Positions 1-28,400 of a stretch of 32,430 nucleotides of DNA are shown here, in pieces (the first letter of the stretch is position 1; every line of letters starts with the position of its first letter). Under the pieces are notes generated by a model. It saw only the letters and a list, made by a program, of their open reading frames with translations, did not search any database and had not been told where the DNA came from. The position numbers were made by a program, and so were the translations under genes. Origin of the DNA: Ignavibacteriota bacterium (GTDB taxonomy: Bacteria; Bacteroidota; Ignavibacteria; UBA10030; UBA6906); assembly GCA_016218065.1 (NCBI GenBank), contig JACRFA010000050.1:1-32430 (forward strand), read 5' to 3'.

Positions 1-9
1 CCTGTCGTC

Positions 10-3000
10 ATGCACGACGGAGATCGACTCTCAACTCCCTTTACCGAAATGCCGTGCACACCGCATATCAACGGGCGAACACGGACGTGGTTTGCTGAGG
101 CGACGCCACAGTCTCATACGAGCTTATGTGCACGTCCTGCGATATTTCGTCTCAGTACACTTCTTCTTCTCATCCTTCATTGCGTTGCGTTTACCTTTCC
201 GGCATTTCCGCAGCCCTCGCGCTTCTTCGAGGAGTGGCGCTGGATCGAGTTCACAACCGAATCCGGCCTACCCTCCAATCACGTCTATGCAATCGTCGAA
301 ACCGAACGCGGCACGCCGTGGGTGTTTACCAAATTAGGTGTTGCGTGGTATGATGACTTCATCTGGCATCAAGTGCCATTTCCCGCACGCCCACCGTTTT
401 CAAAACCGTATTCGTTCTATGCAGATTCTCATGATAGGATCATTCTTGTTCATGATTCGACACTTTATGTCGGCGATACAAGCGGCTTTCAGCGAGTGAA
501 CATCTCTCACGTCATTCACGCTGTGCCGATTCCTGATGGAAGTCTGATGGTGTTGCGAGACCACTTTGGCAAACCCCGACTCGACTTTTGTCCGCACGAC
601 TTCGTCGGAAAGACGGAAGCCGATCTGATACCGCTTGTACTTCCTTCGAATCACTTCGCAAGCCGAGTGGGTCTCTGTCGAACTCAAAGCAAAACCATCT
701 GGCTTGCGGCTGATGACTGCTTTTTTGAATGGCAGGAAGGGAAATGGATACAGAGGCTTTGCGCGGCTTTCAATAGCTCTTCCCTTCAAGAGGGGCTTGC
801 CGAGAACGAATCCAAGTCCGGAATCCTGCTCACTGCCGGTCGAGGTGATTCCCTCAGCGGTTGGGAGTGGAGCAAAGGTTCGGAGCCGGTTCGGCGCTCG
901 CGGCTCATCTCCCCTAAGACACTTGACATCGCACCGAACGGCACGGTGATCGTTACTGATGTCAGCGGGACATTCTTCATTCGCTGGAAAGATCAATGGT
1001 CAGAGGTTCGCCTTCAACATTTGTCGGCTCGGCTGGTCGAGATGCTAAGATTCCGAAAGAGCGGCGATCTCTGGCTGTGTACGGAGCGAGGCTTGCATTT
1101 GTTCAAATACACAGCGGAACGATGGCGTCTTCTTGCACAAACGGATGTTTCTCGTCGCAACGTTGGCGCCCTCATCAATGACATCGTTCTTGCTTCCGAC
1201 AGTTCCCTTTGGTACGGTACCGGCGATGGCCTGACTGTGCGACAACACGATGGGAACACTATCGCCCTCCGACACATACTTGGACAAAGAATTCGGACGG
1301 TCACGGGAGTGATTGAGGATAGAGAAAGGAATATTCTGATTTGCAGCGGTTCAGTTTTCAAAGGAGTATTCAGATGGAATCATTACTCGTGGGAGCGAAT
1401 CAGTGTCGGCACTCCGGTTGAGCATGCCTACATTCACAGGATGCGAACGGATAGGCGAGGCAGAACTTGGTTTCTCGGCATTACAGGTCCGCATACCGCC
1501 GTAGAGAAAGAAGGGCCCGGCGCTTTTCTTTACGAGAATGGAACTATCACCAAATGGAATCTCCCCGGCAATCGGGTCTACGCATTTGAAGAAGGACCTG
1601 ATAGCTCTCTCTGGTTTGGAACGCTCGCAGGATTAAGCCGATGGAAATCGGGCACGTGGAGACACTGGTCGCGCAATGAGCTGTTCTCCGCAGCGAAGGT
1701 CTTTACACTGGCAATTGATCGAGAAGGGCAAGTGTGGTTTGCCGACAGCAAAAGCGTCGTGGGTGTACTCCACCGAAACGGTGCGTTACGTCGCTTAACG
1801 ACGGAAGACGGACTGCCCGACGAACAGATATGGGAAATCAAAGTTGATGACAAAGGCCGCGTGTGGTGTACAACGCAAGCCGGTCTTGCAGTGTACTGCA
1901 ATGGAGTGTGGACACGATTCGATGAATCGTGGGGGTTGCCCAACACCGTGTTGTGGCCCGTGCTTCCTCTTGCGAAGGAGGTGTACGTAGGATCGAACAA
2001 TGGGCTGCTCGCATTATCATTGGCGGGACTGGAAGACGCTGCGCCGCGAGTCTTCTTAGATCAAGTGCTCACGAGTGAGAGCACTGCACTGCTGCGATGG
2101 AAAGCAATTGCGTGCTGGGGAGAGATTCCTTCCCGCGACATTCTTACGCGCTATCGTGTGAATACGCAGCCGTGGTCGCAGTGGAGCAACAAGAGAGAAT
2201 CGCAAATGCAAGACCTCGCGCCCGGCAAGTATGTGTACGAAGTACAATCGAGACCATTGCTCGGCGTTGATAGCAGCAGGTTCGAGACTGCTCGCTCGAC
2301 GTTCACGATCACTATTCCTTTGGCGAAAGATCCGCGTGTCATGATTCCGGTGACAGTCGTCGTCATTATTATCGCCGCGCTGGTCATTGGGTTCACCACG
2401 CACGCGCGACGGTTGAAGCAAGCGCAGTTGCGCGAAGAACTGCGGCGCGAGCACGAACATGCCGAGCGTCTCGCGCAAGTGGACAAGCTCAAGTCCCGGT
2501 TCTTCGCCAACATCTCGCATGAGTTTCGCACGCCGCTCACGCTGATACTGGGACCGATCGAAAAACTGAAGCAGTCTCTCAATCCTGAGGAGCGCAGCGA
2601 CGAAGGATCCGGATGTCAAACGACGGACAATATCCTTCGCCTCCGCTCCGCTACGGCTCAGGACGTAAAGATGATGGAACGCAACGCCCACCGTCTCCTT
2701 CGCCTCATCAACCAACTCCTCGACTTCTCCAAAGTCGAAGCCGGCAGCATGAAGTTGGCGCTCGCCCAAGGCGATATTGTCGCGTTCACTCGGCGGATCG
2801 TTCAATCATTTCAATCGTGGGCTGAGCAGAAGAGAATTCGATTGTGCTTCAACGCAGATGAAGAGAAGATCGAAGGCTGGTTCGATCAGGACACGGTCGA
2901 GAAGATTCTGAATAACCTTCTTTCGAACGCGATGAAGTTCACGCCGGAGGGTGGGATGGTCCAGATTGCCCTCACCCCCATCCCCTCTCCCACAGGGAGA

Positions 3001-4191
3001 GGGGAGCGAGGGGTGAGGGTCGTTGTCTCCGACTCCGGCGTCGGCATAGCGCCCGAGCATCTTCCGCACATCTTCGAGCGCTTCTATCGCGCAGATGAAT
3101 CGCACAAAACTGAAGGCACAGGCATCGGACTCGCGTTAACGAAAGAGCTTGTCGAGCTGCATCACGGAACAATCGCAGTCGAAAGCATCGTCGGAAGCGG
3201 GACGATGTTTACTGTGGATCTGCCGGTCAACAAAGAAACCTTCGCGCAAGATGAGATCATTGGAATCGACGAAACGGCGAAACAGAGATCACGCGAAACG
3301 GAGAATCGTGAAATCGCACCAAGCACCGACGCCCCCATTCGCCCATTCCCCGATTCCGCTTCAAGGAAAGACAATTCGCAGAGTCACCTCGCGCCCCCGC
3401 AGGAGAGCGCACCGCTCATTCTCATTGTTGAAGACAACGCCGACCTCCGCGCGTACGTACGGAGCTACCTTCTGGCCGAGTTCAGTGTACTGGAATCGGA
3501 GAATGGCGCTGACGGACTGGAGAAGGCGCGCGAGACAATTCCCGATCTCGTCGTGAGTGACATCATGATGCCGTTGATGGATGGCTACGAATTGTGCCAA
3601 GCGCTCAAGACGGACGAACGAACAAGTCATATTCCGGTTATACTCCTCACGGCACGAGCGGCGACAAAGGATAGGATCGAGGGTCTTGACATTGGGGCGG
3701 ATGACTACGTCACGAAGCCGTTCGACGCGCGTGAACTCCTTGCACGCATGCGCAATCTGATTGAAGGAAGACGCAGGCTGCGCGAGAAGTTTGGCAAGAC
3801 TGTTCCGCTCAAGCCGGGAGAAGTTGCTGTGACGTCTCTCGACGATGCCTTTCTGCAGAAGGCAATTGCCGTTGTCGAAAAACGCATAGGCAATCCGGAC
3901 TTCGGCGTCGATGAGTTCTGCTACGAGATGGCGTTGGGACGAACGCAGATCTACCGGAAACTTCATGCCCTCACGAATCAATCGGTCGTCGAATTTATTC
4001 GGCACATCCGGTTGATGCGCGCACACGAGTTGATTCTGAAAGGCGCGGGGACAATCTCAGATATCGCGTATCAGACAGGCTTCGGAAGCCTTACCTACTT
4101 CACCCGCTGTTACCGTGAACGGTTCAGCTGCACGCCAAGCGAAACACGATCCTCACAAAAGACCGGACCTCACGCGTCTTCACAGGGCTGA
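10..4191 (+). CDS. Hybrid two-component sensor/AraC regulator (HTCS), copy 1
   Basis: One-piece signalling protein of 1393 residues. A hydrophobic export signal lies at about residues 45-68. It is followed by two-component-regulator propeller repeats (for example SSLWFGTLAGLSRW) to about residue 680, a weak Y_Y_Y-like domain, and a membrane helix at about 777-799. The HisKA domain has phospho-acceptor His837 (ISHEFRTPL). The ATPase has an N-box near Asn968, G1 at Asp1008 (DSGVGI) and G2 near 1036-1045. The receiver spans about 1137-1255 with Glu1141/Asp1142, phospho-acceptor Asp1184 and Lys1236. An AraC-type helix-turn-helix occupies about 1283-1380. By family knowledge, such proteins sense an extracytoplasmic ligand and activate nearby genes. 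The start is uncertain: ATG at 49 is also possible, neither ATG has a good RBS, and the frame is open to the left edge. Compared with the copy at 17945, the kinase carries extra residues encoded by palindromic repeats (2583-2663 and 2969-3019), while its catalytic motifs look intact. Confidence 0.93.
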   Translation: MHDGDRLSTPFTEMPCTPHINGRTRTWFAEATPQSHTSLCARPAIFRLSTLLLLILHCVAFTFPAFPQPSRFFEEWRWIEFTTESGLPSNHVYAIVETERGTPWVFTKLGVAWYDDFIWHQVPFPARPPFSKPYSFYADSHDRIILVHDSTLYVGDTSGFQRVNISHVIHAVPIPDGSLMVLRDHFGKPRLDFCPHDFVGKTEADLIPLVLPSNHFASRVGLCRTQSKTIWLAADDCFFEWQEGKWIQRLCAAFNSSSLQEGLAENESKSGILLTAGRGDSLSGWEWSKGSEPVRRSRLISPKTLDIAPNGTVIVTDVSGTFFIRWKDQWSEVRLQHLSARLVEMLRFRKSGDLWLCTERGLHLFKYTAERWRLLAQTDVSRRNVGALINDIVLASDSSLWYGTGDGLTVRQHDGNTIALRHILGQRIRTVTGVIEDRERNILICSGSVFKGVFRWNHYSWERISVGTPVEHAYIHRMRTDRRGRTWFLGITGPHTAVEKEGPGAFLYENGTITKWNLPGNRVYAFEEGPDSSLWFGTLAGLSRWKSGTWRHWSRNELFSAAKVFTLAIDREGQVWFADSKSVVGVLHRNGALRRLTTEDGLPDEQIWEIKVDDKGRVWCTTQAGLAVYCNGVWTRFDESWGLPNTVLWPVLPLAKEVYVGSNNGLLALSLAGLEDAAPRVFLDQVLTSESTALLRWKAIACWGEIPSRDILTRYRVNTQPWSQWSNKRESQMQDLAPGKYVYEVQSRPLLGVDSSRFETARSTFTITIPLAKDPRVMIPVTVVVIIIAALVIGFTTHARRLKQAQLREELRREHEHAERLAQVDKLKSRFFANISHEFRTPLTLILGPIEKLKQSLNPEERSDEGSGCQTTDNILRLRSATAQDVKMMERNAHRLLRLINQLLDFSKVEAGSMKLALAQGDIVAFTRRIVQSFQSWAEQKRIRLCFNADEEKIEGWFDQDTVEKILNNLLSNAMKFTPEGGMVQIALTPIPSPTGRGERGVRVVVSDSGVGIAPEHLPHIFERFYRADESHKTEGTGIGLALTKELVELHHGTIAVESIVGSGTMFTVDLPVNKETFAQDEIIGIDETAKQRSRETENREIAPSTDAPIRPFPDSASRKDNSQSHLAPPQESAPLILIVEDNADLRAYVRSYLLAEFSVLESENGADGLEKARETIPDLVVSDIMMPLMDGYELCQALKTDERTSHIPVILLTARAATKDRIEGLDIGADDYVTKPFDARELLARMRNLIEGRRRLREKFGKTVPLKPGEVAVTSLDDAFLQKAIAVVEKRIGNPDFGVDEFCYEMALGRTQIYRKLHALTNQSVVEFIRHIRLMRAHELILKGAGTISDIAYQTGFGSLTYFTRCYRERFSCTPSETRSSQKTGPHASSQG
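2583..2663. repeat. Palindromic repeat read in frame within the HisKA domain
   Basis: This is an imperfect stem-loop. TCCTGAG (2583-2589) pairs with CTCAGGA (2657-2663), and CGAAGGAT (2601-2608) pairs with ATCCTTCG (2632-2639). The remaining arms are GC-rich and only roughly complementary. It encodes about residues 858-885 (beginning NPEERSDEGS), which fall between the two DHp helices. The equivalent loop in the paralogue at 17945 is about 20 residues shorter. The CCTGAG-AGCG-CAGCG-GAAGGAT style resembles dispersed repeats usually found between genes. Confidence 0.7.
2969..3019. repeat. 51-bp near-perfect palindrome read in frame within the ATPase domain
   Basis: The outer arms CCCTCACCCC (2969-2978) and GGGGTGAGGG (3010-3019) are exact complements. 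The inner arms TCCCCTCTCCC (2981-2991) and GGGAGAGGGGA (2995-3005) are also exact, around a 3-nt loop. It encodes residues 988-1003 (LTPIPSPTGRGERGVR), between the N-box and the G1 box. The paralogue has an unrelated, about five residues shorter loop there. The sequence matches the style of a widespread bacterial REP-type repeat normally found in intergenic DNA. Confidence 0.85.
3293..3359. repeat. Imperfect inverted repeat in the kinase-receiver linker
   Basis: A purine-rich arm (3293-3316, containing GGAGAATCG) is followed by a pyrimidine-rich, roughly complementary arm (3332-3359, containing CCCATTCCCCGATTCCGC). It encodes the low-complexity linker between the ATPase and receiver domains. 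The second sensor gene has a comparable repeat in the same linker. Confidence 0.45.
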
Positions 4192-5234: not shown

Positions 5235-5430
5235 CTAGCAGGCTGTTGAAAAAGGCCAACATGTCATTCCGATGGAGCGCTTCGACTTCGCTCAGCACAG
5301 GCTGCGCGACTGAGGAATCTCTCCTTTTTTGGGATCAGATTCTCCCTAAGGGATGCCTTCGGCACTCACCCCGCCAAAGAGCGTCGGGGTTCGGAATGAC
5401 ATAGAGCTCAGTTTTTCAAAAGCCTGCTAG
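5235..5430. mobile_element. MITE-like element, 196 bp, with terminal inverted repeats
   Basis: Terminal inverted repeats of 19 bp lie at 5235-5253 (CTAGCAGGCTGTTGAAAAA) and 5412-5430, with one mismatch. A nested exact inverted repeat, ATGTCATTCCGA (5261-5272) and TCGGAATGACAT (5391-5402), lies inside. The interior has no credible ORF, so it is non-autonomous. Ends of the GGCTGTTGAAAAA type are known from IS ends and MITEs in many bacteria. The outer CTAG at both ends may be the element end or a target-site duplication. The interior contains further short repeats of the 'cttcgctcag' type. Confidence 0.75.
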
Positions 5431-12255: not shown

Positions 12256-13884
12256 ATGAAACCGAAACGTAAAACCAACTGGCTCATCCTCGCACTGCTG
12301 CTCTTTGCCGCGTGGGCGACACGCCTTGACGCGCAGGAGGTTGAGAAAGTGCCGGAGAAGGTTAAGGATAAGATTGAGGGAAAGAGAAAGGTTGAGACTG
12401 AGGTTCAGGTTGAGAAGAAAGCTGTTGGTCGCGAAACCGATCCTGACGATGCGCGAGCTGTCGATCAGGAAAAGATCCGTCCGAAAGAAAAAGAGAAGCA
12501 CAGCCCCCCTTCACGCGACAACCCGCTTTCTGTACCCGCCGATTTTGTGGTGGGAGGAGGAACGCAGGTGATGCTCAAGAACGGCGCGCAGTTGTCGATG
12601 GGTGGCAATCTCATGAGTGGCGGGGTAATCTCATCCGTCGGCGGCTCGGCAGTATGTTTCAACGGAGTCGATCAAACGCTGAGCGGTGTGCCGGTGCTGG
12701 ACACGCTCGATGTTTGCAGCAGCGGAACGCTCACGCTCAGCAACTCCGTAACAGTAAACGGCAGGCTGGTGCTCACAAGCGGAGAGCTGACCACCGGCAG
12801 TAATACCCTCACGGTCGCCAACACCGATCCCGGCGCAGTCTCGATACCGACAGACGGCGGCAGCATCAATGGCACCATCATCAGGTCGATTGCTGCAGGT
12901 GCGTCGGGGCTGTATCAATTCACCAACGACAGCACGTACCTCCAACTGGATGGCTCGTTGGCAGCGCCGCTCAGCGTCACCATCACGGCGTATCCGAACA
13001 CGTTTCCGCCTGCCGGAAACACATCGGGCGCAATCAAACGCCATTACACCGTCACGCCGAGCGGCGCACTCAATGCCTACAAGTTCTCACTCGCCTGGGA
13101 TCGCGCAACGGAAAACCCGCACGCTGTGTCGGTAATGGTTTTGATTCTCTACCGGAACACCGGCGGCACTCTCTGGACGCCCGAAGGCGGCGTGCCCAGT
13201 ACGTTCAACCAGGGCACATGCCACAACGTGTGGATCGGCCCGATCAACCAATGGTCCAATTGGGCGATCGGCTCATCGTTCTCACCGCTGCCTGTTCAGC
13301 TCGCATCGTTTACGGCGGTGGAACTCGCGGGCCGCGGCGTGTTGCTGCGGTGGCGAACGCTCAGCGAGACGAACAACTACGGCTTCTTTGTGCAGCGAAA
13401 GAATAATGGATTGTTGGATGGTTGGATGGATGTGCCGAACGGCTTCGTTGCGGGTCATGGTACGACACTGGAGCCACACGACTATGAGTTCCGCGATTCA
13501 ACAGTCGGCATCGGCAGATGGTCGTATCGATTGCGCCAGGTGGACATCGACGGAACCGAACACTTCAGCGATGCCATCGACGTGCGGGTGCTGACTGCTG
13601 TGCGTGAGTCGGCGCCGCTTGTGTACTCGCTTGCGCAGAACTACCCGAATCCGTTCAACCCATCGACGACCATCAAGTTCAGCGTCGAGCGGACGGGGCG
13701 CGCGGTGATAGAAATGTACAACATACTCGGCCAACGCGTGATGACGCTCTTCGACGAAGTCGCGGAGGCGGGACAGTACTACACGGTTCGGTGGAACGCA
13801 AACGGAATTGCGAGCGGGATGTACATCTACCGGCTGCAGTCCGGAAGTTTTTCGAGCGTGAAGAAATTGGTTGTACTCAAGTAA
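12256..13884 (+). CDS. T9SS cargo protein with charged N-terminal segment
   Basis: A 542-residue protein; ATG 12256 is preceded by GAAAGGA (12239-12245). The signal peptide is about 1-26 (LDAQ end). Residues 27-92 are almost entirely Lys/Glu/Arg/Asp/Pro-rich and look like an extended or coiled stalk. Residues about 93-340 are a Thr/Ser/Gly-rich beta region with no identified enzyme motif. From residue 345 (LPVQLASF) comes the interdomain common before T9SS tails, then QNYPNPFNPSTTIKF (about 461) and a C-terminal beta domain ending VKKLVVLK. By family knowledge the tail directs export through the type IX system and attachment to the surface. It is 32 bp after the fibre gene and probably co-transcribed with it; it could help anchor the fibre (inference). 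Its tail region is nearly identical to that of the next gene. Confidence 0.88.
   Translation: MKPKRKTNWLILALLLFAAWATRLDAQEVEKVPEKVKDKIEGKRKVETEVQVEKKAVGRETDPDDARAVDQEKIRPKEKEKHSPPSRDNPLSVPADFVVGGGTQVMLKNGAQLSMGGNLMSGGVISSVGGSAVCFNGVDQTLSGVPVLDTLDVCSSGTLTLSNSVTVNGRLVLTSGELTTGSNTLTVANTDPGAVSIPTDGGSINGTIIRSIAAGASGLYQFTNDSTYLQLDGSLAAPLSVTITAYPNTFPPAGNTSGAIKRHYTVTPSGALNAYKFSLAWDRATENPHAVSVMVLILYRNTGGTLWTPEGGVPSTFNQGTCHNVWIGPINQWSNWAIGSSFSPLPVQLASFTAVELAGRGVLLRWRTLSETNNYGFFVQRKNNGLLDGWMDVPNGFVAGHGTTLEPHDYEFRDSTVGIGRWSYRLRQVDIDGTEHFSDAIDVRVLTAVRESAPLVYSLAQNYPNPFNPSTTIKFSVERTGRAVIEMYNILGQRVMTLFDEVAEAGQYYTVRWNANGIASGMYIYRLQSGSFSSVKKLVVLK
13291..13789 (+). repeat. 499-bp near-identical tail segment, copy 1
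   Basis: Aligned without gaps to 17022-17520, it has 12 mismatches in 499 positions (97.6% identity). It runs from the CCTGTTCAGC of the LPVQLASF linker to ACACGGTTC, after which the last ~31 codons diverge. Confidence 0.92.
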
Positions 13885-14165: not shown

Positions 14166-17100
14166 ATGTGTACCAGAAACAGAATTCTCCTTCTGCTCGC
14201 GGCAGCGCTTGCAATTGTTACGAATACTACGCTTGGCCAGGCGCTGAGCGGCACGAAAACCATCGGCCCGACAGGTAACTACACCGCTATCGGTGCGGCG
14301 ATCCTCGACATTCAGACCCAAGGCCTATCCGGCCCTCTGATCCTGGAACTTCAGTCAACATACGTAAGCACTGTCGAGACATTCCCGCTTGTGTTCTCGG
14401 GATTGCCGACGAGTGCGACGAACACACTCACACTGCGACCAACAACCGGAGCAACTGGCCTCTCCATCGTGGGGGCGGCTTATCCAACGATAGTCGCTCT
14501 GGACGGAGTTGATTATTTCACTATCGATGGACGACCGGGTGGAACAGGAACATCCAGGGAGCTTGCGATCGAGAACTCAGCGGCTGGTAATGCTATGCGG
14601 TTCCTCAACGATGCCTGCTATAACAGACTCATGTATCTCATCCTACGAGCTACTGGTGGAGCCCCGATAGTGGGTTTCAGCACTACCACGGGCACCACGG
14701 GTAATGATAATAACTGCATCGACTTCTGCGACTTAAGGGACGGTCTGTCATATCCAAGCACCGGAATAGAGTCGTACGGCTCGACTGGAACGCCTGCACA
14801 GTACAACAGCAACGATACTATCTCCAATTGCAGCATTTTCAATTTCAGGCAACATATGTTTAATGGAGGGGCAGGCGTCGTCCTGTGGAGTGGTAACAGC
14901 GATTGGATCATAACAGGGAACAGCGTGTACCAAACCGCGCCAATACTTTCTGGAGCTTCGGGGTACGGGTTGTGGTATCAAGGTATTCGTATTAGTGGTG
15001 GCAGCAACCATGTAATTTCCGGAAACTACATTGGTGGTTCGGCTCCACAAGCCGGAGGCGCGCCCTGGGCAATCACCGCGAGCCCTGCAATAACATTTGT
15101 AGGTATTTCGCTTTCGACTGACGCCGCGGCAAGCATTCAGAATAATACAATCTCAAATCTTTCGTGGAATACAAGTTCGTCTGGTATATGGGGAGGTATC
15201 TCTCTCCAGGGAGGTGGCACAAGTACGATGACGGTAATGGGCAATACGATAGGCTCGCCCACTGGCACCGGTTCCGTTCTGGTTACCTCATCTTCACAAG
15301 CGACAAGCTACGGGATTGCTATCAATGCAGCAGCTGGGGCTACGGCGAACGTCACCAACAACATCATTGGCGCGATCACGCTCATGGGAAGCTCGACCTC
15401 CGTCTCACACTCATTCCGAGGAATCGAGAATACCGGAGGCGGAATCGTCAACATCACAAACAACACCATAGGCAGCACGGCAACTGCCAATAGCATCAAC
15501 CTCATCACCTCATCAACAAGCACCACGGGACAGAGATTCGTCGGCATCAACAACACTTCCACCGGTCCCACGCTCACGATTTCCTCAAACGTCATTGCAA
15601 ACATCAACAACAACTATGTGGGGACGAATTCGGCTGGCCAAGTAATTGGAATTCTCACTTCAGGTGGCGGTTGCACGATTGCGGACAACACAGTCCGCAG
15701 CATGTCCACAACAAGCAAGAACTCAAACTCATTTGCGAGTTCTTCTGTCATCGGCATCAGTCTGACTTCAACCAATGTCGGGCAAACTGTCTCACTAAAC
15801 AGGATCTATGGCTTGACGAATACGACCTCCTCATCCGGCGTAGGAAACATTGGTCTGTTCTATAACGGGCCTACATCTGGCACGAACACAGTTACGCGAA
15901 ACATTGTGCACAGCCTTTGTCTGTCCACGCCTATCACAAGCTCTTTCATTTTCGGCATTCACGCATTCGGCGGGACGGCAAACTATCAGAACAACATTAT
16001 CCGCCTCGGCTTTGACGCTGCTGGTAACTCGATAACGACCGGATACTCGATCTACGGGATCACTGAGATGGGATCGGGAGGGACGGTCAACAACAACTAC
16101 TACTTCAACAGCATTCATATAGGAGGAACCGAAGTACTCGCTGGGGGATCATCGACGTTTGGTCTCTCGAGTGTCGGTTCACCTGGTTCTTGCCAGGTTC
16201 GCAACAATATCATCCTGAATGATCGATCCAATGCAAGCGGTTCAGCGGTCAACCATTATGCGTTCCTCCGGGAGAGCATTACCGGCGACTACAACTTCTA
16301 CCGTGCGGGCGGGAATGGTGGGGCACTAACCACTATGAATGGATCTCCCATCTCGACGCTTCCGGCGTATCAGACCTTGACAGGCCAGGAGTTGAATAGC
16401 GGTTATGGAGATCCCGCTTTCACCTCAACAACAGATTTGCATATTGATCCAGCGAATGCAAATTCTTGGAACGTCAACGGGCGCGGCATTGCCGTTGCCT
16501 CAGTTGCTAACGACTATGATGGAGATGTTCGCAGCGCTATAGTCGGAACCCCGACAGACATTGGCGCCGACGAATTTACACCATCGGCTGCGCCTCCGAA
16601 CGCAACTTCCTCCGGTGCGCCGGCAGCAGGCACAACAACTACATATACATCCGGCGGCAGAGTCGTGGCAGAGATCGTGTGGCCCGCGACGCTCCTGGCG
16701 CCAATGGATTTCCCGACTGATGTTGTTGTGAGATACTATCCGGGCGTGCCGCCTCCAGGTACGGTCAACTCCAACATCAACAGTTATTGGGATATCACGG
16801 CAACGGGTGGTTCCGGCTATACCTGTGACGTCGTTCTTCACTATTCGCCAGCCGAGTTGAACAACATTCCGGAATTGAACCTCTATATGGGAAAGACCGA
16901 TGCCACGAACGCGTGGCGGCTCGTGGAACCGAGCATCCCTAACGAAGTCGCCAACACTGTGACCGGATTAGGCGTGACTGGCTTCTCGAAGTTTACACTC
17001 ACTAACCAGAACAATGCCCTTCCTGTTCAGCTTGCATCGTTCACGGCGGTGGAGCTTGCGGGCCGCGGAGTGTTGCTGCGGTGGCGAACGCTCAGCGAGA

Positions 17101-17615
17101 CGAACAACTACGGCTTCTTTGTGCAGCGAAAGAATAATGGATTGTTGGATGGTTGGATGGATGTGCCGAACGGCTTCGTTGCGGGTCATGGTACGACACT
17201 GGAGCCGCACGACTATGAGTTCCGCGATTCAACAGTCAGCATCGGCAGATGGTCGTATCGATTGCGCCAGGTGGACATCGACGGAACCGAACACTTCAGC
17301 GATGCCATCGACGTGCGGGTGCTGACTGCTGTGCGTGAGTCGGCCCCGCTTGTGTACTCGCTTGCGCAGAACTACCCGAATCCGTTCAACCCATCGACGA
17401 CCATCAAGTTCAGCGTCGAGCGGACGGGGCGTGCGGTGATCGAGCTGTACAACATACTCGGCCAACGCGTGATGACGCTCTTCGACGAAGTCGCGGAGGC
17501 GGGACAGTACTACACGGTTCTGTTCGATGCAAAGGCCCTTGCCAGCGGCGCGTACATCTACCGCATCCAATCGGGAAGCTACGCAGCCGTGAAGAAGATG
17601 CTGATTCTTCGATAG
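14166..17615 (+). CDS. T9SS-exported beta-helix surface protein
   Basis: A 1149-residue protein. ATG 14166 is preceded by CGGAGG (14156-14161); an in-frame ATG at 13977 is rejected because it lacks an RBS and would put 63 residues ahead of the signal peptide. The signal peptide is about 1-24 (TTLGQ). Residues about 25-860 are rich in NTI/NNI/SGN turns (for example GNTIGSPTGTG, VTNNIIGAITL), the pattern of a right-handed parallel beta-helix. A segment ending DIGADEF (about 803) closes the helix as in other such proteins. A short beta domain follows, then LPVQLASF at 952, QNYPNPFNPSTTIKF near 1067 and a C-terminal T9SS beta domain. By family knowledge it is surface-attached or secreted; beta-helices often bind or cut polysaccharide, but no catalytic motif could be picked out. 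The 499-bp tail segment is nearly the same as in the preceding cargo gene. Confidence 0.88.
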   Translation: MCTRNRILLLLAAALAIVTNTTLGQALSGTKTIGPTGNYTAIGAAILDIQTQGLSGPLILELQSTYVSTVETFPLVFSGLPTSATNTLTLRPTTGATGLSIVGAAYPTIVALDGVDYFTIDGRPGGTGTSRELAIENSAAGNAMRFLNDACYNRLMYLILRATGGAPIVGFSTTTGTTGNDNNCIDFCDLRDGLSYPSTGIESYGSTGTPAQYNSNDTISNCSIFNFRQHMFNGGAGVVLWSGNSDWIITGNSVYQTAPILSGASGYGLWYQGIRISGGSNHVISGNYIGGSAPQAGGAPWAITASPAITFVGISLSTDAAASIQNNTISNLSWNTSSSGIWGGISLQGGGTSTMTVMGNTIGSPTGTGSVLVTSSSQATSYGIAINAAAGATANVTNNIIGAITLMGSSTSVSHSFRGIENTGGGIVNITNNTIGSTATANSINLITSSTSTTGQRFVGINNTSTGPTLTISSNVIANINNNYVGTNSAGQVIGILTSGGGCTIADNTVRSMSTTSKNSNSFASSSVIGISLTSTNVGQTVSLNRIYGLTNTTSSSGVGNIGLFYNGPTSGTNTVTRNIVHSLCLSTPITSSFIFGIHAFGGTANYQNNIIRLGFDAAGNSITTGYSIYGITEMGSGGTVNNNYYFNSIHIGGTEVLAGGSSTFGLSSVGSPGSCQVRNNIILNDRSNASGSAVNHYAFLRESITGDYNFYRAGGNGGALTTMNGSPISTLPAYQTLTGQELNSGYGDPAFTSTTDLHIDPANANSWNVNGRGIAVASVANDYDGDVRSAIVGTPTDIGADEFTPSAAPPNATSSGAPAAGTTTTYTSGGRVVAEIVWPATLLAPMDFPTDVVVRYYPGVPPPGTVNSNINSYWDITATGGSGYTCDVVLHYSPAELNNIPELNLYMGKTDATNAWRLVEPSIPNEVANTVTGLGVTGFSKFTLTNQNNALPVQLASFTAVELAGRGVLLRWRTLSETNNYGFFVQRKNNGLLDGWMDVPNGFVAGHGTTLEPHDYEFRDSTVSIGRWSYRLRQVDIDGTEHFSDAIDVRVLTAVRESAPLVYSLAQNYPNPFNPSTTIKFSVERTGRAVIELYNILGQRVMTLFDEVAEAGQYYTVLFDAKALASGAYIYRIQSGSYAAVKKMLILR
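17022..17520 (+). repeat. 499-bp near-identical tail segment, copy 2
   Basis: Partner of 13291-13789. The 12 differences include several silent changes and a few that alter residues (GIGRW to SIGRW; IEMYN to IELYN). Confidence 0.92.
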
Positions 17616-17944: not shown

Positions 17945-20900
17945 ATGAGATTTCCCATGTCTTCATACAGACTGTTGCGAGTGATCTCGACTTTCCTCGC
18001 TGCTGCTCTCACATACGGCGTGGTGTGGGGAGAAAACATTTCCTTCCGCCATCTTACCATCGATGATGGTCTTTCGCAAAATGCTGTGACTGCAATCCTT
18101 CAGGACCATCGTGGGTTCATGTGGCTCGGGACGAAGGATGGCTTGAATCGATACGACGGCTATGTGTTCACGACGTACCGGCACAATCCGTTTGACACCG
18201 CCTCTCTCTCTGCGAGTCATATTACATCGCTCTTCGAAGACAGTCGCGGTTCATTGTGGATAGGGACAGTTGAAGGGAGGGTTGATCGCTTCGTTCGACG
18301 AACCGAGACGTTTCAACGATTTCGCACGAACGTAGCTTCCGAAATCTCCACCATCGCGGAGGATTCTTCCGGGAACATTTGGGTCGGAACACACAGTGAT
18401 GGCCTGCTGATGCTTGCAAAGGAATCGCATGAATTCGTGCACCTCAAAAATCAACCCGGTCGCGCGCGCAGCCTGAGCAGTAACGCAGTGCATGCATTGC
18501 TCGTTGACGTATCAGGAACTGTGTGGGTAGGAACGAAGAACCGGCTGAACAAGTTGGTCGGCGGCGACGCGTTCGAACACTTTCTGATCTACACAAAGAA
18601 TCCGCTCGCCCCTCCTTCGGATAACGACAGCAGCATTACTGCCATTCTTCAGGGTGAACACGGAACATTGTGGCTCGGCGTTGGAAACGGAGTGGTGCAC
18701 TTTGATCCGGCGGTAAAAAAGTTCGTCGGCTATCCACACCACTACGATGTTTATCGGTACGATTGGGGCCGCGTAAAGGGAATGGCGCAAGGGGGGGATC
18801 GCGAGCTTTGGATTGCAACCGCGTCCGAACTCATGCGGTTCAATCAGGAAAAGAAAACGTACGAGTACTCTCGAAACGATCCGCTCGACCCGAAGAGTCT
18901 GAGCTACAATGTTGTCTCTACGATAAGGAAAGATCGAACAGGTATTCTCTGGATTGGAACCGCCGGCGGCGGAGTGAATCTGTACGACGACAAGTCACGA
19001 CGATTCTCAACTCTCATACGAAAGCAAGATCCCGCGTCGCGCATCGCAGGATTTAGTGTGCGGTCGATTCTTGAAGACAAAGAAGGATACGTCTGGGTGA
19101 GCACAGACGTCGTGTATAGATGGAACAGACACACGCGTGAACTCAAGTCCTTCGAGACGACATCCGACCAACCGGACGACTTCGGCAATACCACTGCGGG
19201 GTCGATGGTCCAATCAACGAGTGGAATCTTATGGTTTTCCTCGACCCAAGGGCTTTTTTCCTACGACCCGATTTCGCAACGCACCAGACTGTACAAGCAT
19301 ACTCGTGAAGATACGACGGGGCTGCCGGAGAAGTCTGTGCACGCGCTCTTCGAAGACCGGAGCGGAACGCTGTGGGTCGCGACCGAATCATATCTCTGCA
19401 AGCTTCTCGACACGGAGAAGGGGAAGTTTCGGCGCGTACGCTTTCGGCAGAATACCGGTCAGAGCCAGAACGTTGGCTTAGTCATTCGTCAGGATGGCGC
19501 GGGTCGCATTTGGCTCGGCACAGAAAACGGTTTGCTGCGATTCAGCCAAACGGATGAGACCTTTGAAGAGTTTCGGAATGATCCGGCGCGGCTGACGAGT
19601 CTCAGCAATAATCAGATCAAGTGCATCTGCATCGATCCACAATCACCAGAGAAGATTCTCTGGATCGGGACTGCAGGCGGCGGTTTCAGCCGATTCGATC
19701 TTGAGACGAGGACCTTCCATCACTTTGGCGAGAAGGATGGCTTGCCGAATAACGTCGTGTATGGAATTGTCCCTGATGAACAGGGTCATCTGTGGCTGAG
19801 TACGAACAAAGGGCTATCTCGGTTCGACCTGAAGACGCATGCGTTCAGGAACTACGATGTAGGTGATGGGCTGCAAAGTAATGAGTTCAACACCGGCGCC
19901 TACTTCAGAAGCAGGAGTGGAGAAATATTCTTTGGCGGGATCAAGGGCTTAAACTACTTCCGTCCGGAGACTTTGAGGGAGAATTCCTTCCTTCCGCATG
20001 TAGTGTTCACGGGTCTCAAACTTGATAATGTCGAAGTCTCCCGCACGTATCCGAATTCCATTCTTGCGAGTTCAATATCAGAAACAAAATCGCTGACGCT
20101 CTCGCCGAACATCAGCATCGTCACGTTTGAGTTTGCGGCGATGGAATTTACCGCTCCCGAAAAGAACCGCTACCAGTATAAGTTGGAGAATTTCAATTCT
20201 GATTGGATCGATGCGGGCACTGTTCGCTCAGCGACATACACCAACGTACCGCCCGGCTCATACACATTTCGCGTGAAGGCCTCCAACAATGACGGCATCT
20301 GGAACGACGAAGGCGCCGCGCTTGAGCTGACGATATTACCACCGTGGTGGAAAACGTGGTGGGCATACGCGCTGTATGCGATCGTGGTTCTTGCAGCTCT
20401 ATATATAATGCGTCGCTACGAACTGAACCGACTCCGATTGAAGGGCGCTCTTGAGTTGGAAACAATCGAGGCGGTGAAGTTGAAGGAACTCGATCGGTTG
20501 AAGTCGCGGTTCTTCGCCAACATCTCGCATGAATTCCGCACGCCGCTCACGCTGATTCTCGGCCAGGTGGACAACGTAATGAACTCCGGCATTGAAGTGA
20601 AGGAAAAGGCAAAGCTCCACGTTGCTCTTCGTAACGCGCGACGGCTCCTTCAGTTGATCAACCAATTGCTGGATCTTTCGAGAATCGAAGCGGGAAGCAT
20701 GGAGCTGAAAGCCGAGCGACACAACCTCGTCTCGTTCGTCAAAAACGTCGTGTACTCATTCGAAGCGCTCGCCGAACAACGGCAGATCTCACTGACTTTC
20801 AACTCCGACAGTGCGCAGATTACCGCGATGTTTGAACCGGACAAGATGGAAAAGATTTTTTCCAATCTGCTTTCGAATGCGTTCAAGTTCACTCCGAAAG

Positions 20901-22111
20901 GCGGGGGCGTGAGTGTAATTGTGGAGACGAGCGGCGCAGGGTTCGTTCAGGTCACCGTGCGCGACACCGGCATCGGCATCCCGGCTGATCAAGTTCAGCA
21001 CATCTTTGATCGCTTTTATCAGGTTGACAGCGCGTCGAGTTTTCGACCGGACGGGCAGGAAGGCTCAGGCATTGGTCTTGCACTTGCAAAGGAGTTGGTG
21101 GAATTGCACGGCGGTTCAATCGCCGTCAGTAGTAAGCAAGGAGTCGGTACTGAGTTCGTTGTGATATTGCCATTCGCGCGTGGCAGCGTAAACGAGGAGG
21201 AGTTACGAAACGAGCGAGCCGGTGAAACGGAGATGGAGGAGCGAATCGGAGAGTTGAAAGAGCGAAACGGAGAAGCGGAGAAGCGGAGAACGGGAAGGGT
21301 CCCCGATTCACCGATTCTCCCTCTCGCCGACTCTACTTCTGCGGAAGAAACGAATGCGCAACTCATACTCGTCGTCGAAGATAACGCCGATGTGCGTGCG
21401 TACATTTGCGAGCAGTTGGAAGATCGGTACAATGTCATCGAAGCTGCAGACGGCGACGAAGGCGTTACGAAGGCGCAGGAAGCGATTCCCGACCTAATCA
21501 TCACCGACCTCATGATGCCGAGGATGGACGGCTACCAGTTCACGAAGCAGATTCGTCTCGATGAAAAGACGAGTCACATCCCGATTGTCATGCTCACTGC
21601 AAAAGCGGATCTCGACGACAAGATCGAAGGGCTTGAGCGAGGCGTGGATGTCTATCTCACGAAGCCATTCAGCGCGAAAGAATTGAAAGTTCAAGTTCAT
21701 GCACTGATTTCACGACGAGAGGAACTGCGGCGTCGGTTCAGCACAGCGACAATCATCAAACCTTCTGAAATCACAGCGACATCAATCGACAAAGCATTCC
21801 TCCAGAAAGTGATTGCCTGTGTCGAGACCCATTTCGAGGATGAACAGTTCAGCGTGGAGCAACTTGCCCGTTCGCAGAACATGAGCATCTCGCAGCTCAA
21901 CCGAAAGCTCAATGCGCTGATCAATCAGGCGGGCGGAGAACTCATTCGCTCGATGCGCCTGGAACGTGCTGCCGACTTGCTAAAGCAGAATGCAGGTTCG
22001 GTGGCTGAAATCTCGTACAAGCTCGGCTTCACGGATCAAGCGTACTTTTCGCGCGCATTCAAGAAGCAGTTCGGATGCACGCCGTCGCAGTACAGGGATG
22101 CCCAATCCTGA
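17945..22111 (+). CDS. Hybrid two-component sensor/AraC regulator (HTCS), copy 2
   Basis: A 1388-residue protein with the same architecture as the one at 10-4191. The signal peptide is about 1-30. Many propeller repeats (LSQNAVTAILQDHRGFMWLG, LWIGTAGGG and similar) run to about 690. A clear Y_Y_Y domain follows (YQYKLENFNSDW to NNDGIWND, about 725-795), then a membrane helix at about 806-824. HisKA His862, N-box Asn974, G1 Asp1007 (DTGIGI), G2 near 1040, receiver Glu1145/Asp1146, Asp1188 and Lys1240, and an AraC helix-turn-helix from about 1283 to the end (FGCTPSQYR) are all present. ATG 17945 is chosen, with ATG 17957 possible; neither has a clear RBS. By family knowledge it couples an external signal to transcription of nearby genes. 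The DHp loop lacks the palindromic insert found in copy 1, but the kinase-receiver linker contains a comparable purine/pyrimidine repeat. Its target genes are not identified. Confidence 0.94.
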   Translation: MRFPMSSYRLLRVISTFLAAALTYGVVWGENISFRHLTIDDGLSQNAVTAILQDHRGFMWLGTKDGLNRYDGYVFTTYRHNPFDTASLSASHITSLFEDSRGSLWIGTVEGRVDRFVRRTETFQRFRTNVASEISTIAEDSSGNIWVGTHSDGLLMLAKESHEFVHLKNQPGRARSLSSNAVHALLVDVSGTVWVGTKNRLNKLVGGDAFEHFLIYTKNPLAPPSDNDSSITAILQGEHGTLWLGVGNGVVHFDPAVKKFVGYPHHYDVYRYDWGRVKGMAQGGDRELWIATASELMRFNQEKKTYEYSRNDPLDPKSLSYNVVSTIRKDRTGILWIGTAGGGVNLYDDKSRRFSTLIRKQDPASRIAGFSVRSILEDKEGYVWVSTDVVYRWNRHTRELKSFETTSDQPDDFGNTTAGSMVQSTSGILWFSSTQGLFSYDPISQRTRLYKHTREDTTGLPEKSVHALFEDRSGTLWVATESYLCKLLDTEKGKFRRVRFRQNTGQSQNVGLVIRQDGAGRIWLGTENGLLRFSQTDETFEEFRNDPARLTSLSNNQIKCICIDPQSPEKILWIGTAGGGFSRFDLETRTFHHFGEKDGLPNNVVYGIVPDEQGHLWLSTNKGLSRFDLKTHAFRNYDVGDGLQSNEFNTGAYFRSRSGEIFFGGIKGLNYFRPETLRENSFLPHVVFTGLKLDNVEVSRTYPNSILASSISETKSLTLSPNISIVTFEFAAMEFTAPEKNRYQYKLENFNSDWIDAGTVRSATYTNVPPGSYTFRVKASNNDGIWNDEGAALELTILPPWWKTWWAYALYAIVVLAALYIMRRYELNRLRLKGALELETIEAVKLKELDRLKSRFFANISHEFRTPLTLILGQVDNVMNSGIEVKEKAKLHVALRNARRLLQLINQLLDLSRIEAGSMELKAERHNLVSFVKNVVYSFEALAEQRQISLTFNSDSAQITAMFEPDKMEKIFSNLLSNAFKFTPKGGGVSVIVETSGAGFVQVTVRDTGIGIPADQVQHIFDRFYQVDSASSFRPDGQEGSGIGLALAKELVELHGGSIAVSSKQGVGTEFVVILPFARGSVNEEELRNERAGETEMEERIGELKERNGEAEKRRTGRVPDSPILPLADSTSAEETNAQLILVVEDNADVRAYICEQLEDRYNVIEAADGDEGVTKAQEAIPDLIITDLMMPRMDGYQFTKQIRLDEKTSHIPIVMLTAKADLDDKIEGLERGVDVYLTKPFSAKELKVQVHALISRREELRRRFSTATIIKPSEITATSIDKAFLQKVIACVETHFEDEQFSVEQLARSQNMSISQLNRKLNALINQAGGELIRSMRLERAADLLKQNAGSVAEISYKLGFTDQAYFSRAFKKQFGCTPSQYRDAQS
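21243..21317. repeat. Purine/pyrimidine inverted repeat in the kinase-receiver linker
   Basis: GAATCGG (21243-21249) is complementary to two copies of CCGATTC (21303-21309 and 21311-21317). The left side is a purine-rich run with repeated GAAACGGAGAAGCGGAGAA-like units. It encodes a Glu/Arg-rich stretch followed by a Pro/Ser/Leu-rich one, in the same linker position as 3293-3359 of the first sensor. Confidence 0.45.
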
Positions 22112-22294
22112 GCGCTTTCCAGCGAAGGATCTTACCTGCACTCAACTGGAGCACGCTTGACTGTTGATATCTACTCTCCACTTTACCGCAGTTGACCCGC
22201 GAGCTCACTCTCGAGAAAACCAAGCACCTCACCCTAAGAGCCAACTCCTGCGTAGTTCTCCGAACAGCCTTCAGCTATCTTTGCAGGTGAAAAT

Positions 22295-22320
22295 ATCCTT
22301 CGCTGAGAATCGCTCAGGAT
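22295..22320. repeat. Degenerate short palindrome
   Basis: ATCCT (22295-22299) pairs with AGGAT (22316-22320), and CTGAG (22303-22307) with CTCAG (22313-22317). The ATCCTTCGC and GCTCAGGA parts match the right arm of the repeat inside the first sensor gene (2632-2663), suggesting a shared family. Confidence 0.4.
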
Positions 22321-25440: not shown

Positions 25441-28400
25441 ATGAACGCAACGTCTAACCCACTCTCGATTTTCCGTTCGCGATTTTACCAGACGCGACAT
25501 CGTGTGCTCATACATCTTAGTGTGAGTTTCGTTCTCCTGTGCGGCCTAAGTTCTGCAAGCGCGCAAGTAGCCGCCATCGGTTCTCCTGCCTCGGCCTCTG
25601 CAACGAATACTATCGCGAGCTTTACCGCAGTGGCAGGCACGAACCGTGTGCTAATAGTAACCGCCTCGGATGCTGCTTCAACGAATATTACCGGAGTCAC
25701 ATTTGACGGCAATGCAATGACAGAAAGAGCGGAACGAAACGATGGAACTGCGGTTGATGCCATCTATACGTTTTCACTCGGCACAAGTGCTGGTCCAACG
25801 ACCGGAGCAATTGTCATGGCAAGCACGAATGGCGTTCATACGGGAAAGGTTGTTACGGCAAGGGTGTTTGAGAACGTGGACCAGGCTACTCCGTTAACAA
25901 GTATTTTGTCGGCTGACAATACAACGACACCATCAACCAGTACCTTGACTGTCACAAGCGCCACAGGAGATTTGGTGTTCGACATTTTTGATTCATTCAG
26001 GAATTCTTTACCGGGCAGCGCGCATAGCGCCGGAGGCGGGCAGACAATTATGCATAGCGTTGCTGAATTGCCGGTAACTGGTGGATTTGCCTGGTACAGC
26101 ACAAGCACGAAGGCTGGCGCTGCGAGTGTGGCAATGAGTAGAAGTACAACTGATCATATCGCTCTCATTCACATTGCAGCAAACATAAAAGCAGCAGTCG
26201 CTCTGCCCTTGTTGTCGATCAACAATGTCACGCTGAATGAACTCAACACCGGCACATCCACTTTCTCATTTACGGTGAGCCTCTCCGCTCCTGCAGGCAC
26301 GGGTGGTGTCACGTTCGATATTGGTACGCAAGACAATACCGCCACAACGGCTGACAACGATTACATACAGAAAACTCTTACCTCGCAGACAATTCCATCG
26401 GGAAGCTCGACGTACTTGTTTGATGTGACAGTCAATGGCGACACCAACGTTGAACCCGATGAGACTTTCTTCGTCAACGTGACAAATGTTGCTGGCGCAA
26501 CGGTGAGTGATGGCCAAGGGCAAGGGACAATTACGAATGATGATGTCGCGCCCTTCACCGACATCGCCGCTGCGCTCACGGGTGTGTACGGTTCCGCTGC
26601 GTGGGGTGATTACGACAACGACGGCGACCTTGATATTCTGTTGACGGGAGTCAGCAACAGTGGAGGAAATGTAGGAAGCAGCTTTGTGTACCGAAATGAT
26701 GGCAGCGGCGTGTTCACCGACATCAACGCCGGGCTGGCGGGTGTCACTGGCAGTTCCGTTGCGTGGGGCGATTACGACAACGACGGCGACCTTGATATCC
26801 TGCTGACAGGCAGCACGAACGGTTCTAATTCCGGAGCAATCAGCAAAGTGTATCGGAATGATGGCGGGACATTTACGGACATCGCCGCCGGTCTAACGGG
26901 AGTGCACCTCGGTTCCGTTGCGTGGGGCGACTACGACAACGACGGCGACCTCGATATTTTGTTGACGGGGGTGGATGCAGGAAACACGAAAACGAGCAAG
27001 ATCTATCGAAACGATGGCGGGACATTCACGGACATCAACGCCGCACTGACAGGCGTGGAATTTTCTTCCGTTGCGTGGGGCGATTACGACAACGACGGCG
27101 ACCTCGACATAGTGCTGGCAGGGTATGATGGAACTTACCTCAGCAAGATATATCGCAATACTGCAGGTACATTCACCGACATCAACGCGGGACTGGTAGG
27201 GGTTCTTCAAGGCTCTGTTGCGTGGGGCGATTACGATAATGATGGCGATCTCGATATTCTGCTTACCGGCAACTTGTCCAGTGGCAGAGCTGCAAAAGTG
27301 TACCGCAATGATAACGGCGCTTACACAGACATCAATGCGGCGCTGACGGCAGTCTCCAGTAGTGCCGCTGCGTGGGGCGATTACGATAACGACGGCGACC
27401 TTGATATTCTCTTGGAAGGATATAATGGTTCAGGACGCACCACGACGGTATATCGCAATGATGGCGGCACGTTCACCGATATCAATGCCGGGCTTGCGTT
27501 AGTTGCCGGGGGATCTGTTGCCTGGGGCGACTATGACAACGATGGCGATCTCGATATTTTGCTCTCGGGTCTGGACGGCAGCAGCAATCGCATCAGCAAA
27601 GTGTACCGCAACAATGCGACAACGCCGAACACAGTCCCCACAGCCCCATCGGGGCTGACAGCTACACAACTCAGCGGCAACCGCGTTGCGTTGGCATGGA
27701 ACACTGCAACTGATGCAAAAACTTCGTCTCCGAATGGAGTAACTGTTCCGGTGTTGAGCTACAATCTCCGGGTAGGAACAACCCCAGGTGGCATCAACAC
27801 CCTCAGCCCGATGGCAGATGTCGGATCCATTCATATCTCCAGTGATGGATTAAATGACGGCTGGAGGAGAATACCGAAATTCGGTCCACTGCAAACTTTG
27901 CGCGACACGCTTACGCTTCCCCCAGGACAATATTATTGGGGCGTGCAAGCGATTGACGCCGCATTTGCCGGCGGTCCGTTTGCGACCGAAGCGTCGTTCA
28001 ATACATGCCCGCCGTTTACCAACAACAGGGCGTATGTCAACGCTTCTGCAGTTGGCGCAAACAATGGTACAACCTGGGCTGATGCATTAACGAGTCTGCA
28101 ATCTGCGTTGGCAGTTACTGGAACATGCGGCGTAACAGAAATATGGGTCGCAGCGGGAACATACAAACCGACTGCTACCTCAGACCGAACAACTTCATTT
28201 GTCATGATAAACGGCGTTGCCATTTACGGCGGCTTCCCGAACACTGGCAATCCAACAATGGCTGATCGCAACTGGACGGCGAACCCGACGATCCTGAGCG
28301 GCGACATTGGCACACCGAACGACAGCACGGATAATAGCTATCACGTTATCTTCAATAACTACACTGTTAGCACTCCGCTGACAAATACGGCAGTGCTTGA

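Follow-up and report, generated by a model that had tools for sequence, protein, structure and literature searches.

The window, by which we mean the whole 32,430-nt stretch of DNA analyzed, is contig C282 of a 5.17-Mb Ignavibacteriota genome assembled in 319 contigs. It opens with a gene for a hybrid histidine kinase whose product carries propeller repeats, a HisKA domain, a HATPase_c domain, a response regulator, and an AraC-type HTH. A palindrome lies within the ATPase domain of this kinase and a second repeat-derived insert within its HisKA domain, and a paralogous hybrid kinase is encoded farther downstream (Table 1).

Table 1. Features of the window and loci of other phyla referred to in the text (positions with a locus prefix refer to that locus)
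Feature	Position	Strand	Details
Hybrid histidine kinase gene	1..4191	+	1396-codon ORF; 5' end cut by window; in-frame ATG at 10
HisKA	2491..2745	+	Residues 831-915; Pfam PF00512
Second repeat-derived coding insert	2581..2664	+	Residues 861-888, NPEERSDEGSG..SATAQD; HisKA helix-helix turn; fold z -3.3
HATPase_c	2884..3231	+	Residues 962-1077; Pfam PF02518, 100.3 bits
Mobile palindrome	2968..3020	+	51-nt core plus 1 base each side; inverted-repeat detection, folding, further copies
Palindrome translated	2968..3021	+	ALTPIPSPTGRGERGVRV, residues 990-1007; beta-hairpin tip, N box to G1 box
Paralogous hybrid kinase	17945..22111	+	Without either insert (2968..3020 palindrome, HisKA insert)
Copy of HisKA-insert repeat	22105..22130	+	3' end of paralogous kinase gene; chance expectation 0.00
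Inverted partner of 22105 copy	22295..22320	-	Inverted-repeat detection
DUF559/methylase locus	L119:2319-4616	-	
DUF559/methylase locus	L189:5394-8000	-	
DUF559/methylase locus	L130		
In-gene copy, Asparaginase_2	L087		
In-gene copies, HsdM-type methylase	L114, L119		
In-gene copy, amidase	L136		
In-gene copy, squalene-hopene cyclase	L147		
In-gene copy, aminotransferase	L173		
In-gene copy, DNA polymerase I	L179		
In-gene copy, MmeI	L189		

The palindrome consists of outer arms, CCCTCACCCC at 2969–2978 and GGGGTGAGGG at 3010–3019, and inner arms, CCCCTCTCCC at 2981–2991 and GGGAGAGGGG at 2995–3005, enclosing a loop at 2992–2994; inverted-repeat detection reports the arms as 2969–2989 and 2999–3019. 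Its sequence from 2968 to 3020 reads GCCCTCACCCC-CAT-CCCCTCTCCC-ACA-GGGAGAGGGGA-GCGA-GGGGTGAGGG-T. As single-stranded DNA it folds at –24.6 kcal/mol (z = –6.86), a stability that none of 200 dinucleotide shuffles equaled, and the 51-bp palindrome proposed at 2969–3019 in the initial annotation is thus genuine. Its in-frame reading between N box and G1 box of a sensor kinase was confirmed in the 1396-codon ORF. The residues then assigned to it, 988–1003, were roughly right; numbered from base 1, codons 990–1007 are involved, downstream of the N box (residue 971) and upstream of the G1 box (residue 1011). Both boxes are intact around the segment, as had been proposed, with HATPase_c still scoring 100 bits across the palindrome, and alignment bore out the unrelated, shorter loop of the 17945 paralogue (VSV-IVETSGAG-FVQV vs. 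VQIALTPIPSPTGRGERGVRV in the first kinase). An expectation that all six frames of the element would be open proved wrong, as only four of the six are free of stops. An Rfam search of the window gave no match.

The insert in the HisKA domain derives from a different palindromic repeat, ATCCTGAG..GAAGGAT, which is translated in the HisKA turn but also forms an extragenic inverted pair at 22105–22320; a full second copy of this insert was not found elsewhere in the host genome. The window holds further repeats. Two neighboring secreted-protein genes share a segment of at least 300 nt (13288–13587 and 17019–17318) at 97% identity, a recent duplication or conversion; an intergenic, MITE-like inverted pair, CTAGCAGGCTGTTGAAAAA, lies at 5235–5253 and 5412–5430 (95% complementary, 158 nt apart); and the last gene contains, at 26540–27616, six to seven tandem repeats of ~150 nt each, encoding units of the DYDNDGDLDIL type.

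Copies of the palindrome were sought in the host genome by DNA search and with a covariance model. Eight genomic places matched at E ≤ 1e-5, all of them within long ORFs and in one register: two in kinases (contigs C282 and C18) and the others in proteins ending NYPNPFNPSTTIRY..LKIYDLLGREVATLV (contigs C251, C114, C113, C77, and, twice, C151). The C-terminal domain (CTD) of the latter is the T9SS type A sorting domain (TIGR04183; PF18962), present at least 150 times in the host genome, and three decayed copies (C237, C221, C277) occupy the same CTD hairpin as the strong ones. Strong and decayed copies together number two in paralogous kinases and nine in T9SS C-terminal domains, which have a different fold. 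The register ALTPxPSPxGRGExGVRV is shared by 11 of 11 copies in the host genome and by the one further copy detected in a genome of the same genus, G002 (1/1); no other register was found among the host copies. The element has two register pairs free of stops and is always read in one of them. No long conserved ORF was seen around the more divergent relatives in the host genome (C161, C176, C110, and others). Across the phylum, matches at E ≤ 1e-6 occurred in 7 of 395 genomes, the host included. Among 118 palindrome loci of other phyla, the in-gene copies in Pfam-recognized proteins (Table 1) use several registers, and viral contigs, scanned for exact matches to the GTAGGGACGTTC palindrome, contained none.

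These searches delivered the further genomic copies that the initial annotation had called for, and they modify two of its statements. The palindrome had been described as of a type normally found between genes, which fails for this subfamily in the host genome, where the covariance-model matches at E ≤ 1e-5 are all intragenic. The kinase setting holds insofar as the palindrome does sit in a kinase, but it is not kinase specific, most copies being in T9SS sorting domains.

Between kinase and CTD copies the element is 85–92% identical and the flanks only 23–29%, that is, unrelated; because of this difference we conclude that the element moved as a unit. Among the CTD copies the element is 92–98% identical and the flanks 63–80%. 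An alternative history would have a single insertion into one CTD, passed on afterward only as CTDs duplicated and recombined, and a second event for the kinase copy. CTDs are numerous and homologous, and their copies of the element are very much alike; their flanks, however, are far less similar than the element they surround, and the carriers are unclustered on a tree of 113 CTDs inferred with the hairpin excluded. The eight scored carriers require eight changes on that tree, so the insert-bearing CTDs appear scattered, and the alternative is left without support and looks unlikely, although the tree is short and its resolution poor. Gene conversion may have given the CTD copies some shared history, and as few as two independent events could therefore account for the single register.

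Gene conversion, which we infer, whereas unit mobility is demonstrated, is also suggested by the kinases. In the paralogues on C282 and C18 the element is 98% identical, the adjoining sequence 82–86%, and the sequence further upstream mostly 60–70%, a gradient that, judged from sequence alone, looks like a short conversion tract. Aligning the loop, as had been proposed, confined the element to these two among the homologous kinases: neither the third paralogue (C221, 55% identical) nor the G002 homologue has it, and the remaining homologous kinases examined within the order lack it as well. The outcome named in advance as refuting an inserted repeat, the same segment in all distant orthologues with no other copies, was not found. 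There is no sufficiently close empty site in which the insertion event or its boundaries could be read.

Placed on the HATPase fold, the kinase copy aligns to the short hairpin turn of solved kinases, and the CTD copies align to the hairpin turn of a solved CTD. The hairpin position is shown by these alignments; a structure model of the kinase has strands 986–994 and 1004–1011 flanking a turn, with low confidence (mean pLDDT 53, only two sequences). In both folds, the tip of a β-hairpin has been replaced by the element at a net gain of about 6–10 residues: the kinase gains six relative to the paralogue in the window, and CTD hairpins with the element go from 14 to 24 residues. The palindrome thus replaces a hairpin tip and does not add 17 residues.

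The element is not the only repeat at these positions. The CTD hairpin of the host genome also contains the palindrome GGGACGGGGCATGCCCCGTCCC (translated VGTGHAPSL), which has 69 strand matches at up to two mismatches against none for the control, many of them in CTD hairpins and others without a long ORF, and several further repeat-derived tips are found there. Diverse tips of this kind, some palindromic, were seen in L232, L233, L236, L238, L240, L243, L250, L251–L255, and others, and in L251, L254, and L255 one palindrome is nested inside another. In G009, a genome of the same family, the corresponding HATPase hairpin of one kinase (L045, 2942–2975) holds a different, perfect palindrome, GTAGGGACGTTCAATTGAACGTCCCTAC, and a broken relative of it is present in genome G006 (L048).

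Conservation of the segment in both kinase paralogues and the high stability of its hairpin could be read as selection, either for a kinase function such as the tuning of ATP-lid or dimer movement or for an mRNA hairpin slowing translation. The identity of the paralogues is, however, explained by conversion or recent arrival, and the presence of the element in secreted proteins unrelated to the kinases, together with the varied inserts at the hairpin, points to tolerance; we consider selection for such a role improbable. Most likely, we infer, the kinase segment merely lengthens the hairpin between N box and G1 box, tolerated and close to neutral, and is not a new functional module.

The label REP-type given initially holds in the sense of a mobile palindrome. 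Membership in the strict sense, with movement by the host's RAYT transposase, would find some encouragement in the two Y1_Tnp (RAYT) genes of the host genome and in REPs already known to occur within genes (PMC3733652). Both Y1 genes are, however, flanked by different palindromes, GCATGACCGTTTGACGGTCATGC and GTTGAACCCCAACGGGGTTCAAC, which leaves strict membership unsupported. At these loci (L031, L032) each gene adjoins its own palindrome, L031 on both sides. A RAYT was rejected as the mobilizer since the palindromes at the Y1 genes have no sequence match to the element. Of the features defining strict REPs, only that of a short palindrome in many dispersed copies is met (eight strong and several weak in the host genome): the copies are not mainly extragenic, the strong ones all being in genes, the foot is GCCCTCACC and not GTAG or CGTC, and no copies lie beside the genome's RAYT genes. 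We give this origin little credence. The remaining possibility, that an ancestral, ordinary kinase loop has GC-rich codons that are self-complementary by chance, can appeal to the variable length of the N box–G1 box loop in all kinases and is dismissed by near-identical DNA in unrelated genes with unrelated flanks, the absence of the element from other homologous kinases, and a fold z of –6.9.

The nuclease gene beside palindromes of this type is DUF559 (PF04480, Vsr-like nuclease). Two-tier palindromes flank it in Cyanobacteria, Deinococci, Alphaproteobacteria, Planctomycetes, Spirochaetes, and the host's order, each lineage having its own variant (L100, L119, L130, L140, L184, L189; L340–L369; L370–L379). 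DUF559 and its palindromes also occur in frame within methylase genes (HsdM, MmeI) whose downstream parts are still readable (Table 1). Palindromes of the element's type flank DUF559 genes across phyla far above chance. In six of the seven DUF559-bearing loci of other phyla the domain lies within 160 nt of the palindrome, several having copies on both sides; direct flank repeats scoring at least 40 were found at 11 of 28 DUF559 genes from the host and its relatives vs. 0 of 237 control windows; and among 10 DUF559 genes sampled from plasmids, 8 were bracketed by strongly matching repeats or by the palindrome core. The pattern TCACCCCn(1-8)CCCTCTC matched 68 times in genomes with DUF559 and 21 times in those without, and at least four copies occurred in 7 of 28 genomes with the gene and 0 of 32 without (p = 0.003, uncorrected for shared ancestry). 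The host's single DUF559 gene is flanked by a sibling palindrome, not by the exact element. A literature search for DUF559 with palindromes found no paper, most subscription journals being outside its scope. A role of DUF559 in moving the palindrome is an inference and has not been shown.

Overall, the interpretation of the initial annotation is supported, and we are rather confident that a mobile, REP-like palindrome landed in the kinase gene and was kept as protein. Under this explanation, a short mobile palindrome would have inserted into the gene and been retained as coding sequence. The register may have survived because it suits the site: A-L-T and G-V-R-V at its ends could prolong the two antiparallel strands, and PSPxGRGE between them, rich in proline and glycine, could make the turn. 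A DNA hairpin would in this way supply a protein hairpin and leave the fold largely unharmed. Copies would then have spread between paralogous genes by short-tract gene conversion, and the class may be moved, now or formerly, by the DUF559 nuclease, for which the flanking palindromes in many phyla provide independent support. A broader reading remains tentative, and we stop short of favoring it: DUF559 nucleases would drive mobile palindromes across phyla, as a counterpart of the RAYT/REP system, and these would serve as ready-made β-hairpin tips in lineages rich in T9SS domains and hybrid kinases. On that reading a DNA hairpin would encode a protein hairpin, as the symmetric ends of one register give two strand ends able to pair.

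In-frame repeat insertions are usually viewed as scattered accidents. Here, short repeats have been recruited repeatedly into working proteins, and with one element and several unrelated palindromes at the same position in two folds, it can be asked directly whether palindromic DNA is biased toward hairpin peptides. The insertions are a source of length variation both in T9SS sorting domains and in the N box–G1 box loop of kinases. Through the DUF559 link, a palindrome family of many bacterial phyla gains an enzyme that can be tested, and this link may matter more than the main result.

Several known systems resemble the element. Like MITEs, it is nonautonomous inverted-repeat DNA feeding into proteins, but no terminal repeats of a resident IS or target duplication were recognized, without a close empty site for reading the ends. 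Intragenic REPs of the GTAG and CGTC superfamilies are read in frame in many proteins of several phyla (Di Nocera et al. 2013, PMC3733652). They too are short palindromic repeats in frame within many different proteins, whereas the element lacks the GTAG/CGTC foot and any RAYT link in the host and keeps to a single register and a single structural position across two folds that are unrelated. With the DUF559-flanking palindromes it shares the arm motifs TCACCCC and CCCCTCTC and a two-tier hairpin, but it lies apart from any nuclease gene, the host DUF559 carrying a sibling. Rickettsia palindromic elements are mobile palindromes turned into protein segments in unrelated genes, with a preferred frame. 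The comparison with them, drawn at the outset, is apt in the sense that the element works alike: the same palindrome is translated in unrelated proteins (kinases and T9SS domains) in one preferred frame, with the caveat that the independent events may be few. It differs in being shorter, in belonging to another lineage with no sequence relation claimed, and in its concentration at β-hairpin tips, where it often replaces residues. Since intragenic REPs and the Rickettsia elements are already known, the element is a variant of an established phenomenon; what is new, as far as we have seen, is that a single register has been used repeatedly at a single structural position of two folds without relation to each other, and that DUF559 is associated with palindromes.
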